A stretch of 64,000 nt of DNA, from the NCBI RefSeq assembly GCF_024756255.1, contig NZ_JANUHB010000003.1, forward strand, positions 124,001 through 188,000, given 5' to 3'. The DNA is from Massilia agilis. GTDB taxonomy: Bacteria; Pseudomonadota; Gammaproteobacteria; Burkholderiales; Burkholderiaceae_D. Positions 35,914 to 39,114 of the stretch are shown piece after piece (position 1 is the first letter of the stretch; every line of letters begins with the position of its first letter). The notes under the pieces are model-generated. The model had not been told where the DNA came from. It worked only from the letters and a program-made list of their open reading frames with translations, and searched no databases. The translations under genes and the position numbers were made by a program.

Positions 35914-38900
35914 TCAGTCCTCGAGCAGCCGCTCCAGGAAGCGCGCGACTGCCGCGCCGATCGCCTCGGCCTTGTCCCGGTCCAGCGCGTGGGGCAGGTA
36001 GCACAGGTGCCATGCCAGGGTTCCGTCGCTCATGCCGGCACTGAGTTCAAGCACGGGGAAGCTGCCGCTGCGCGCACGCGCCTCGTTCCACGCACCCGGC
36101 AGGTGAGTCGCGCCAAGGAAGGTGAACACGCCGTCGCGCCGGAAGCCGTTATCGACCGCACCGCGAAATTCCAGCGCCAGGGCCGGCTGCGCCAGCCGTT
36201 GGGCCTCTCCGTGCGCTGCGGCGCCATGGCACAGCAGGGCATAGTCCGCGGCATGCGGCGCGACCGCGGCATGGGCCTGGCGTGCCACCGCGTACTGGCG
36301 CTGCGGGCTGGAGGGAGCGGCGTGCACCCGAACCGGGTAGAAGTCGACCAGCCAGCCGACCGCCGCGGCGCTGGCCCCGCTGCGGCCGTGCTGGTTCAGC
36401 AGCACCAGCGCCGATGCGTCGCCACTGGCGCCGCACCAGGCATGGCAAAACGCGGCCAGCAGCGCGTCATGGCGCGCCGGGCCATCGGCAAAGCGTTCGA
36501 GAAAGCGCCGGTTGGCCAGCGGCGCCAGGCGCTGCTGCGCCGTGTGCTCGAACACGAACGGCCATGGCTGCGCCTCGGGCGGCCCGGCGCTGCCGCAGAC
36601 GGCGCGCCAGAACCGCAGTTCGTCCTCGGCCCAGCCGGGTGTCGCGGTGCGCGCCTGGCGCGCGCCAAGCCAGTCCAGGAACGCATCCGGAGCCGGCGGG
36701 GCCAGCGTGCCCCGGCACGCCTGCCCGTAGGCGTGCTGCAGGCCGCGCAGCAGGATCGCGACCGACACCGCGTCGATCGCCAGGTGGTGCAGCGCGAGTG
36801 CGAGCACCCCAGTTTCGCCAGCGCCGCGGTCGAGCCAGACCGCATGGGCCAGGTGGCCACGTTCGATGTCGATCGCGGCACGCAGCTGTTGCAGCACCGC
36901 GTTTTGCCAGCCGCGCGCGCCGGCGGGCACGGTGGCCATGTCGAGGCGCTCCAGGCCGATCCCCGCGCCGTCCGGCCGCGCGCTCCATCCGGCCGCGCCA
37001 GCGCGTTCGAAACGCAGGCGCAGGGCAGGGTGGCGCTGCACCAGCCACGCCAGCGCAGCCTCCAGTGCGCCCAGGTCGAGCGCCGCCGGCACGCGCAGGT
37101 ACACGATTTCAAGGAAGTCGTTCGGGTCGGCCACGCCGGCGGCCAGCAAGCGCAGTTGCACCGGGCTGGGCGCGTACGCGGCCGCCTGCCCCGCGCCGCC
37201 AGCGGCGTCGGCCGGCCCGCCGGGCGCGGCGTCGAGCAGCCATTGCAGCTCGCGCAGCGGCAGGTCGGGCCGCAACTGCTCCACGCTGATGGCGCGGCCC
37301 AGCTCCTGCTCGAGCGTGATCGCCAGCTCGACCCGCTTGAGCGAATCGATGCCGAGCTCGCCGAGCGTCCAGTCGCTGTCGACCTGGCCCGGATCGAAGC
37401 CGGCCAGCCGCGCGGCGCAGTCCAGCAAGGCGGCCTGCCCGGCTGCGCGGGCCGGAGCCGGTGTCGCCGGCGCCAGCGCCAGTTCGCCACTGCGCCATGC
37501 GTCGCGTGTGCCCGAGCGACTGATCTTGCCGCTGGTGGTGCGCGGCAGCGCGCCCGGCAGCAGCAGCACGATCTCGTCGGCACTCACGTCCAGCGCCTGC
37601 GCCAGCGCAGCCTGGATTGCCCTGGCGACCTGCTGCTGGTCGGCGCGGCGGCGCTCGCGCCGCAGTTCGCATGCGAGCACCAGCCGCTCGCCGTGCGCGC
37701 CCTCGTCGCTGAACGCGGCCACCGCCAGCGGGTCCAGCGCCGGGTGGCTGGCGCCGGCCAGCTGCTCGATGTCGGCAGGGTAGCAATTGCGGCCGCGCAG
37801 GATGATCAGGTCCTTGATGCGGCCGGTCACGTACAGTTCGCCGTCATGCAGGTAGCCGGTGTCGCCGCTGCGCAGCCACGCTGCGGGATCGCCCTCCAGA
37901 ACCTGCCCGAATACCTGGGCATTGAGCCGGTCCTGCCGCCAGTAACCGGCCGCCACCTGGGCGCCGGCGATCCAGATTTCGCCGACGCTGCGCTCGGGGC
38001 AGCGGCGCCCGCGCTCATCGACGATCGCAACGCGCACGCCGGGGCCGGGAGCGCCGCACGAGACCCGCTGCTGCGCCGTTTCGCCTTCTTCGTCGCGCGC
38101 ATGGGTGGCAAGGCCGGTGCCGGGCGCGCGCGCGCTGACCAGCAAGGTCGATTCGGCCAGCCCGTAGCAGGGCGCCAGCGCATCGGCGGAAAAGCCGGCG
38201 CTTGCGGCCAGGGCCGCGAACCGCTGCAGGCTCGCCGCGCGCACCGTTTCGGCGCCGCAGAACGCGACACGCCATGACGACAGGTCCAGTCCCGCGAGGT
38301 CCTGCGGCGCGAGCTTTTGCGCGCACAGCTCGTAGGCGAAGTTGGGGCCGCCGCTGTGGGTGGCGCGGTAGCGGCTGATCGCTTCGAGCCAGCGCCGCGG
38401 GCGCGCGATGAAGTGGGCCGGCGCCATCAGCACCAGGTGCACGCCGAATGCCAGCATTGGCAGGATGCCGCCGATCAGACCCATGTCGTGGTACGGCGGC
38501 AGCCAGCTCACCACGCAGGCGCTCGGCGGGAGGGCGAAGCGCTCGGCCATGGTGGCCAGGTTCGCCTCCAGGTTGGCATGGCTCAGGCAGACGCCGCGCG
38601 GCGACCCGGTGGAGCCGGACGTGTACTGGATCAGTGCGGGGCCGGCGCCTGGCCGGCTTTGTGCGCCGGCGTCGTCGTCCGGATGGGTTTCATCGGTGGC
38701 CAGCCAGCGCAGCGCGCCGGCCCCGTGGCCGGCCTGCCAAGTCCGGGCCAGGCTGGCGCTGTCCACCAGTGCCAGCTGGGCATCGGCGTCGGCGACCAGG
38801 CGCTCGAACCGTTCGCTTGCGCGCGAGCCGAGCCGGTAGGTGGGCGGATAGGTGGGCACCGGCGTGATCCCCGCCACCCAGCACGCGCACAGGGCGGTGA

Positions 38901-39114
38901 CGAGTTCGGGTCCCGGGCGGTGCAGCACCAGCGCGCGCTGCGCATCCGGGCAGTGGCGCAACAGGCGCCGCGCGATGCGCCGGGATTCGTTGTCGATCTG
39001 GCCGAAAGTGAGCGTGCGCGGCGCGCCGCCATCGTCGTCGAGGAAGGTGAGAGCGATCCGGTCCGGCGTCTCGGCCGCCAGGCGGCGCACGCCGGCCAGC
39101 AGGCCGGGTTGCAT
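35914..39114 (-). CDS. Fatty-acyl-AMP ligase / acyl carrier / condensation-domain protein
   Basis: The 1066-residue protein has three parts. Residues 1-545 are an adenylate-forming domain of the fatty-acyl-AMP ligase type: YTSGSTGSPRG (164-174), WLPPYHDMGLIGG, CYGLAEST, LRSGDTGYL, GRIKDLIILRG and the C-terminal Lys in TTSGKISR (about 528). Residues about 555-630 are an acyl carrier domain with the phosphopantetheine Ser in ELGIDSLKRVEL (about 588). Residues about 650-1066 form a condensation domain with intact HHLAIDA (about 776-782). No thioesterase or further module follows, so the acceptor must come in trans. It starts 3 bp after the cNMP-protein stop, in the RiPP operon. The likely role is to activate a fatty acid and pass it to an amine, possibly the peptide; this is inference. 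Confidence 0.88.
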   Translation of the reverse strand: MQPGLLAGVRRLAAETPDRIALTFLDDDGGAPRTLTFGQIDNESRRIARRLLRHCPDAQRALVLHRPGPELVTALCACWVAGITPVPTYPPTYRLGSRASERFERLVADADAQLALVDSASLARTWQAGHGAGALRWLATDETHPDDDAGAQSRPGAGPALIQYTSGSTGSPRGVCLSHANLEANLATMAERFALPPSACVVSWLPPYHDMGLIGGILPMLAFGVHLVLMAPAHFIARPRRWLEAISRYRATHSGGPNFAYELCAQKLAPQDLAGLDLSSWRVAFCGAETVRAASLQRFAALAASAGFSADALAPCYGLAESTLLVSARAPGTGLATHARDEEGETAQQRVSCGAPGPGVRVAIVDERGRRCPERSVGEIWIAGAQVAAGYWRQDRLNAQVFGQVLEGDPAAWLRSGDTGYLHDGELYVTGRIKDLIILRGRNCYPADIEQLAGASHPALDPLAVAAFSDEGAHGERLVLACELRRERRRADQQQVARAIQAALAQALDVSADEIVLLLPGALPRTTSGKISRSGTRDAWRSGELALAPATPAPARAAGQAALLDCAARLAGFDPGQVDSDWTLGELGIDSLKRVELAITLEQELGRAISVEQLRPDLPLRELQWLLDAAPGGPADAAGGAGQAAAYAPSPVQLRLLAAGVADPNDFLEIVYLRVPAALDLGALEAALAWLVQRHPALRLRFERAGAAGWSARPDGAGIGLERLDMATVPAGARGWQNAVLQQLRAAIDIERGHLAHAVWLDRGAGETGVLALALHHLAIDAVSVAILLRGLQHAYGQACRGTLAPPAPDAFLDWLGARQARTATPGWAEDELRFWRAVCGSAGPPEAQPWPFVFEHTAQQRLAPLANRRFLERFADGPARHDALLAAFCHAWCGASGDASALVLLNQHGRSGASAAAVGWLVDFYPVRVHAAPSSPQRQYAVARQAHAAVAPHAADYALLCHGAAAHGEAQRLAQPALALEFRGAVDNGFRRDGVFTFLGATHLPGAWNEARARSGSFPVLELSAGMSDGTLAWHLCYLPHALDRDKAEAIGAAVARFLERLLED

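Follow-up and report, generated by a model that had tools for sequence, protein, structure and literature searches.

The window analyzed here is a stretch of 64,000 nucleotides from the genome of the soil bacterium Massilia agilis (contig NZ_JANUHB010000003.1, positions 124,001 to 188,000), and on its minus strand an open reading frame (ORF) encodes a predicted 1066 amino acid (aa) protein. The protein displays a fatty acyl-AMP ligase (FAAL) domain, an acyl carrier protein (ACP) domain and a terminal domain of the condensation (C) superfamily that is of the epimerization (E) type. The chain ends with this domain, and the locus raises the question of which molecule accepts the acyl group. As judged from the protein, its relatives and their gene neighborhoods, the FAAL-ACP-E protein is probably an acyltransferase complete in itself, which attaches fatty acyl groups to the ribosomal peptides encoded in the same cluster.

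The FAAL-ACP-E protein

The protein and its domains are as follows.

35914..39114, minus strand: FAAL-ACP-(E-type C-superfamily domain) protein, 1066 aa, a single ORF from ATG to stop; proposed peptide acyltransferase
37480..39114, minus strand: FAAL domain, residues ~1-545, with intact adenylation motifs (Pfam, NCBIfam and PDB matches, motifs)
37240..37452, minus strand: acyl carrier domain, residues ~555-625, with GIDSL and Ser591 (Pfam, motif)
35917..37179, minus strand: E-type C-superfamily domain, residues 646-1066 (motifs, PDB search, trees, fold comparison)

Pfam shows an AMP-binding domain at residues 11-392 (4e-65), a PP-binding domain at 562-614 (2e-7) and a Condensation domain at 646-969 (2e-22). 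The adenylation motifs are YTSGS at 164, CYGLAE at 316, GRIKD at 431 and TTSGK at 526 (Lys530). A preliminary description of this DNA presented the protein as a stand-alone FAAL-ACP-condensation protein with intact motifs, including HHxxxD at about 776, and with nothing after the last domain. This holds: HHLAIDA is at 776, and inspection of the translated ORF reveals no domain C-terminal to the C-superfamily domain. The minus strand location was omitted from that description, and the carrier Ser, which it placed at about 588, is at 591; the carrier motif itself is correct, GIDSL starting at 588.

The homologue in Massilia solisilvae has 95% identity to the window protein across the full length, and the ratio of nonsynonymous to synonymous substitution rates (dN/dS) between the two genes is 0.21. 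The A3, A5 and A10 motifs, the carrier Ser and HHxxxD are kept in all ten members of the family described below. The ORF is therefore not a chance reading frame, and the adenylation domain, whose inactivity had been raised as a possible objection, has intact motifs.

The adenylation part is nearer to FAALs than to CoA ligases. FAAL chains in the PDB score up to 384.5 bits, versus ~80-90 bits for the best chains named as CoA ligases (FadD-type FAALs excluded). The 11 distinct PDB sequences below 1e-60 are all FAAL or FadD-type, some of them named otherwise by their depositors. In NCBIfam, window residues 5-613 align to positions 11-639 of PRK05691. By PDB scores and motifs the adenylation part is a FAAL, and formation of acyl-AMP is predicted. 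The host genome has two phosphopantetheinyl transferase matches.

Family members and distribution

At least ten full-length members are found, including the window protein, in Burkholderiales, in an order with Rhodospirillaceae assemblies and in Verrucomicrobiota. The scan of genome contigs kept the best 80 of 564 matches, and the count of ten is thus a lower bound. The members are those of the window, of M. solisilvae (locus L001), of two Rhodospirillaceae assemblies (L002, L003), of a Roseibacillus assembly of the Verrucomicrobiota (L004), of four genomes from the order of L002 (L115, L116, L117 and L118) and of a Burkholderiales genome from another family (L135). The L115 and L002 proteins are 92% identical.

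The family profile was built from five members, which match it by construction. Members score 1126-1857 bits, those outside the profile 1126-1777 bits, and other FAAL proteins, in eight genomes, no more than 775 bits. Of 61 genomes surveyed around the window, 2 have a full-length member, as do 2 of 290 Burkholderiales genomes. The same six genomes account for 6 of 199 and 6 of 317 in two samples, and in three others the single hit (1 of 385, 1 of 288 and 1 of 189) is in each case the genome from which that sample started; all these counts include the starting genomes. No member was detected at the strict threshold in 244 cyanobacterial genomes, a sample without a positive control from that group, and none of 1475 matching plasmid records covers 80% of the protein.

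The window locus

The genes surrounding the FAAL-ACP-E gene are listed from the precursors onward, followed by the gene on the opposite strand.

45768..46043, minus strand: Nif11-leader precursor 1, predicted core AIIPPQYAKRDRPMGG at 45771-45818 (TIGR03798 7e-6, below cut-off)
45427..45708, minus strand: Nif11-leader precursor 2, predicted core ICMPPQRKFDHHSGIDRG at 45430-45483 (TIGR03798 5e-6, below cut-off)
44507..45298, minus strand: HlyD-type adaptor (TIGR03794, 156.9 bits, cut-off 156.2)
42333..44510, minus strand: NHLP-type exporter with C39 peptidase (TIGR03796, 972 bits, cut-off 853)
39679..42333, minus strand: NHLP-type exporter permease/ATPase (TIGR03797, 794 bits, cut-off 709; start taken from length)
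39118..39663, minus strand: cyclic-nucleotide-binding-like protein (TIGR03896, bacteriocin-type transport-associated, 146 bits, below the cut-off of 161)
31563..35909, plus strand: C39 ABC exporter fused in one chain to a second ABC exporter; gene convergent with that of the FAAL (TIGR03796 and TIGR03797, below cut-off)

The minus-strand order is precursor 1, precursor 2, HlyD-type adaptor, C39 exporter, second exporter subunit and cyclic nucleotide (cNMP)-binding-like gene, with the FAAL gene last. All three families of the NHLP export set (TIGR03794, TIGR03796, TIGR03797) are above cut-off. Pfam and NCBIfam scans show no other tailoring enzyme from the precursors to the operon end in the window, and the likeliest acceptor is for this reason a ribosomal peptide. 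No GCN5-related N-acetyltransferase (GNAT) and no lanthionine synthetase are found among the window cluster proteins scanned, the ORFs of the ten loci having been scanned in part.

The fusion exporter has its own C39 peptidase, and relatives of it adjoin the FAAL gene in L001, L116, L118 and L135; in L135 the match is split between frames. The fusion protein may serve the cluster as an additional, dedicated exporter or as a leader peptidase. A D-serine-dehydratase-like/alanine-racemase-N protein is encoded at 46218-47540 (plus strand), divergent from the precursors, and also adjoins the L001 locus. Outside the window, the same genome has another Nif11-leader match (G000:C4:2903-3139; 37.4 bits, above cut-off).

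Association with Nif11/NHLP loci

All ten full-length members are in Nif11-leader/NHLP-export loci. Nif11-like precursors are present in nine of the ten, the remaining contig (L002) beginning inside the exporter gene; only the C-terminal part of that gene is on the contig, and the precursors and peptidase part are out of view. A TIGR03796-like (C39-type) exporter gene is also found in nine loci, with none seen around L117, where precursors are present. The cNMP-binding-like gene (TIGR03896 match) is in eight loci. Precursor genes are directly upstream of the FAAL gene in L004, L117 and L135. The L115-L118 and L135 loci were found after the association had been noticed.

As a control, 75 further loci with a FAAL, which differ in length (3.4-24.8 kb), show neither a precursor match nor a cNMP match at 1e-3; ABC transporter matches occur in up to 10 of them and an HlyD protein match in one. 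The preliminary description had argued that the acceptor must be in trans, which is supported, and had proposed a ribosomal peptide of the same locus. With ten of ten members in Nif11/NHLP loci versus a precursor in none of the control loci, such a peptide appears to be the best acceptor candidate.

Two further features of these loci were observed. M. solisilvae has four precursor genes (L001:2339-3699) where the window has two; the leader is kept and the copy number has changed. In L135 the gene next after the FAAL gene (L135:12127-15645) encodes a large regulator of the BTAD/AAA type, part of which is cyclase-like, and the cNMP-binding-like protein of the cluster might answer a signal from a regulator of this type.

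The terminal domain

The terminal C-superfamily domain is E-type by sequence search, fold ranking and trees, and is not of the starter condensation type. When the terminal domain is searched alone against the PDB, the top sequence matches are PvdL entries (E2 stretch) and the TycA epimerase. The four terminal domains scanned with NCBIfam match PRK05691 at positions 2768-3212, not the stretch that comes after the FAAL-ACP start (11-639) of the profile. We take the PRK05691 profile to be of the PvdL type, and in solved entries the PvdL E2 domain has residue numbers 2789-3213. TIGR01720 is matched below cut-off by three of the four domains scanned; the window domain is not among the three.

For the trees, C-superfamily domains were gathered from the fetched loci: those of the nine members known at that point, 60 other domains located after a FAAL, 12 E domains called by motif and 96 others. 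The L135 member is present only in the ten-member protein tree. IQ-TREE was run on 62 of the 177 domains, i.e. the nine members, 13 E domains, a random 22 of 60 FAAL-following domains and a random 18 of 95 others; the reference E domains are motif calls from the fetched loci, with L121 added by its tree place, and none is curated. FastTree places members and E domains in one group (support 0.998) together with one further row. In the IQ-TREE tree a branch with 100/100 support has the nine members and 13 E domains on one side, and the 22 sampled FAAL-following domains, not one clade themselves, are on the opposite side. Under a mixture model, run without two long-branch rows, members and E domains again group (100 SH-aLRT). 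The nine members form a single clade (100/99).

VGW is found in only the nine members among 69 FAAL-following domains, and seven of these nine are also EGHGR-type, while the other 60 domains have neither motif. HHxxxDA is present in eight of the ten members and HHxxxDV in two; the HHxxxDG of starter C domains is in none. The window domain has VGW at 919 and FRGAVD at 983. Eight members keep the Glu of EGHGR, which true epimerases require; the window and M. solisilvae proteins have Asn at this position. The Trp of VSW is absent in all ten.

The AlphaFold2 model of the domain has a mean pLDDT of 90.7 and a pTM of 0.88. Its nine best structural matches are E-domain entries (Z 30.9-34.9), and in a second fold comparison the eight best rows are E-domain entries as well. 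The margin is small: the first non-E row has a Z of 30.8, RzmA, a starter C domain, reaches 30.1, and two entries for the GrsA epimerase (28.4, 27.6) rank below RzmA. CmnI, among the best folds, was considered as a precedent for a peptide-acylating C domain and was dropped, being in the excerpted text of PMC12400406 an A-less NRPS module. The preliminary description had taken the domain for a starter condensation domain and had proposed modeling it against starter C domains; the trees do not support that premise, and the fold ranking, by its small margin, also favors E domains.

Precursors and the acceptor site

Precursors were searched for by a leader-end pattern and by tblastn, and precursors of another kind could have been missed. 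They are 75-115 residues in length. Seven leaders from seven loci have in common a leader end like ELSDFELEMVAAG, the motif that also served as the search pattern. Independent of the pattern, tblastn between precursors of different loci gives values from 1e-3 to 1e-35. TIGR03798 is the best family for all ten precursors scanned, at least one from each of nine loci. The window precursors have 26.7 and 26.2 bits versus the TIGR03798 cut-off of 32.3, and match by tblastn (2e-12) a relative in L117 that is above the cut-off (37.0 bits).

The preliminary description had named two possible sites, the free N-terminus left by leader cleavage and the single Lys of each core. A Lys, exactly one per core, is present in nine of 19 predicted cores (window, L001, L117 and L118), and to that extent the second proposal stands. 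The ten other cores, from L003, L004, L115, L116 and L135, have none, which rules out Lys as the general acceptor. Lys as a clade-specific acceptor was dropped once L135 was found; its presence needs two changes on the ten-member protein tree. Ser, Thr or Cys as the general acceptor is excluded by the core of window precursor 1, which has none of the three.

Of the amines, that of the N-terminus alone occurs in every one of the 19 predicted cores, which favors the N-terminus as the putative site, although lineages may differ. Acylation there is possible and would need removal of the leader beforehand. Given that a peptide is acylated at all, the N-terminus is a tentative first choice; a side chain, Lys in some lineages and Ser or Cys in others, is possible and somewhat less likely, and any other site is rather unlikely.

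A Ser-Gly pair occurs in nine of 19 cores, whereas 5000 shuffles give 4.0 (p 0.002); no conclusion is drawn from the excess, since cores of paralogous precursors are not independent of each other.

Proposed function and alternative explanations

The first steps of the proposed mechanism follow from the protein families. The FAAL would use a fatty acid and ATP to form acyl-AMP, and the acyl group would pass to Ser591 of its own ACP. The E-type domain would then hand the acyl group to a nucleophile of a Nif11-leader peptide; this step is proposed because of the locus association and because no other enzyme is encoded from the precursors to the operon end. The C39 exporters, as expected from their families, would trim and export the acylated peptide. 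On balance, the protein is somewhat more likely than not an epimerase of nonribosomal peptide synthetases (NRPS) turned trans-acting acyltransferase, in which a FAAL-charged ACP and an E-descended domain lipidate a free ribosomal peptide without an acceptor carrier domain. The FAAL and its ACP upstream of the terminal domain argue against action on an aminoacyl or peptidyl carrier, as far as the domain order can tell.

Several observations weigh against peptide lipidation by this protein. Most of the Nif11 matches are below the TIGR03798 cut-off, two of the eight non-window precursors being above it, and no side-chain nucleophile is common to the 19 cores (Lys in 9, Ser in 17, Cys in 10). The ~40 kb seen around L117 encode a pair of ABC proteins that lack the C39 domain, and no C39 exporter. 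Members of the family are rare, and the ten loci that support the co-occurrence include some that are closely related. The C39 exporters are expected to cleave the leader during export, which would leave little time for N-terminal acylation in the cytosol. An E-descended domain that keeps the EGHGR Glu in eight of ten members could carry out another reaction.

The alternative that survives best is a fatty-amide pathway, in which a small soluble molecule, either an amine or an amino acid, accepts the acyl group and the peptides are separate passengers. The model for it is OaaC, a C domain that acylates free, non-carrier amines from acyl-ACP without an acceptor carrier domain (PMC13142362; this and the other papers cited by PMC number are represented by excerpts of their text). 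The set of parts is the same, i.e. an adenylating enzyme, an ACP and a C domain. However, RiPP (ribosomally synthesized and post-translationally modified peptide) export or precursor genes are in all ten loci. OaaC-like C domains are placed beside starter C domains and have (D/H)HxxxDS (PMC13142362), a motif in none of the ten members, which group with E domains in a tree that does not include an OaaC sequence. This pathway is considered unlikely.

It is less likely still that the terminal domain is a real epimerase that inverts a stereocentre of an ACP-bound group, e.g. a 2-substituted acyl, with acylation, if any, taking place elsewhere. The tree, the PDB sequence matches, the fold comparison and the EGHGR Glu kept in most members are in its favor. 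Against it, both Massilia proteins have Asn in place of that Glu, a plain fatty acyl chain offers no stereocentre at the alpha position, and the window has no other transferase gene from the precursors to the FAAL gene. E domains are described as always followed by a DCL-type C domain (PMC11546977), and none comes after the E-type domain of the window.

Transfer of the acyl group to another macromolecule or a lipid, with the peptides either unmodified or modified by an enzyme that is encoded elsewhere in the genome, is equally improbable: nothing specific favors it, the FAAL-ACP-E gene travels with precursors across two phyla, and the window operon has no other enzyme candidate. Finally, a usual lipopeptide starter condensation domain cut off from its NRPS is very improbable, since the position after FAAL-ACP, as in 60 other domains, and the RzmA rank above two GrsA entries are outweighed by the trees under two models, the PDB search, the PRK05691 profile position, the fold ranking and the VGW and EGHGR-type motifs, which together disfavor the starter C assignment.

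Relation to known systems

Lipidation of ribosomal peptides by the FAAL-ACP-E protein would have several precedents. Nostolysamides and selidamides are lipidated peptides with Nif11/NHLP-leader precursors made by GNATs, and carry the acyl group on the side chain of Lys or Orn (PMC13060382, PMC9505594). The loci described here are similar in the leader type of the precursor and in the peptidase-containing exporter. They differ in that the proposed acyltransferase is FAAL-ACP-E-type rather than a GNAT, that no lanthionine synthetase accompanies it among the window proteins scanned, whereas described selidamide and nostolysamide members have these enzymes (related GNAT clusters not always), and that ten of 19 cores have no Lys. 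Lipolanthines and goadvionins show that a ribosomal peptide can be acylated at its N-terminus (PMC13060382). These, however, involve class III lanthipeptides, GNAT acyltransferases and polyketide hybrids (PMC13060382, PMC9505594).

The OaaC pathway is comparable in its acyl-ACP donor and in a C-superfamily domain that acts without an acceptor carrier domain; it differs in that its C domain is free-standing and placed beside starter C, and in its small-molecule amine acceptors. NRPS lipoinitiation modules (FAAL-ACP-starter C) have the same FAAL-ACP order but continue with a starter C domain and a complete module, whereas here the E-type domain ends the protein. NRPS E domains (PvdL E2, TycA, TycB3) are alike in fold, tree position, HHxxxD and the GHGR and VGW motifs. 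Unlike those, the domain here is behind a fatty-acid carrier and not an aminoacyl carrier, has no downstream C domain, and has lost the VSW Trp throughout and the EGHGR Glu in Massilia.

A partial literature search found no FAAL-ACP-C or FAAL-ACP-E protein with a ribosomal peptide as its substrate, which is no proof of novelty. In a 2025 review of FAALs the letters "ripp" occur only once, in an author's name, and in the 2010 paper on Nif11/NHLP leaders "acyl" and "amp" do not occur. In the excerpts found, fatty-acylated RiPPs with a named acyltransferase use a GNAT in each case (PMC13060382, PMC9505594), and a FAAL-ACP-E-type maturase would for this reason be a new variation on the lipidation of RiPPs.

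With one gene and a precursor the system is small, and it occurs in two phyla, so that both the acceptor and the site are accessible to direct experiment. If the proposal is true, an E domain would be shown to have taken on acyl transfer, and a one-protein route that combines activation of the fatty acid with a carrier and a transfer domain would extend the means of producing gene-encoded lipopeptides. It would represent a new lipopeptide route and a second, GNAT-independent origin of fatty-acylated RiPPs, in Pseudomonadota and Verrucomicrobiota.

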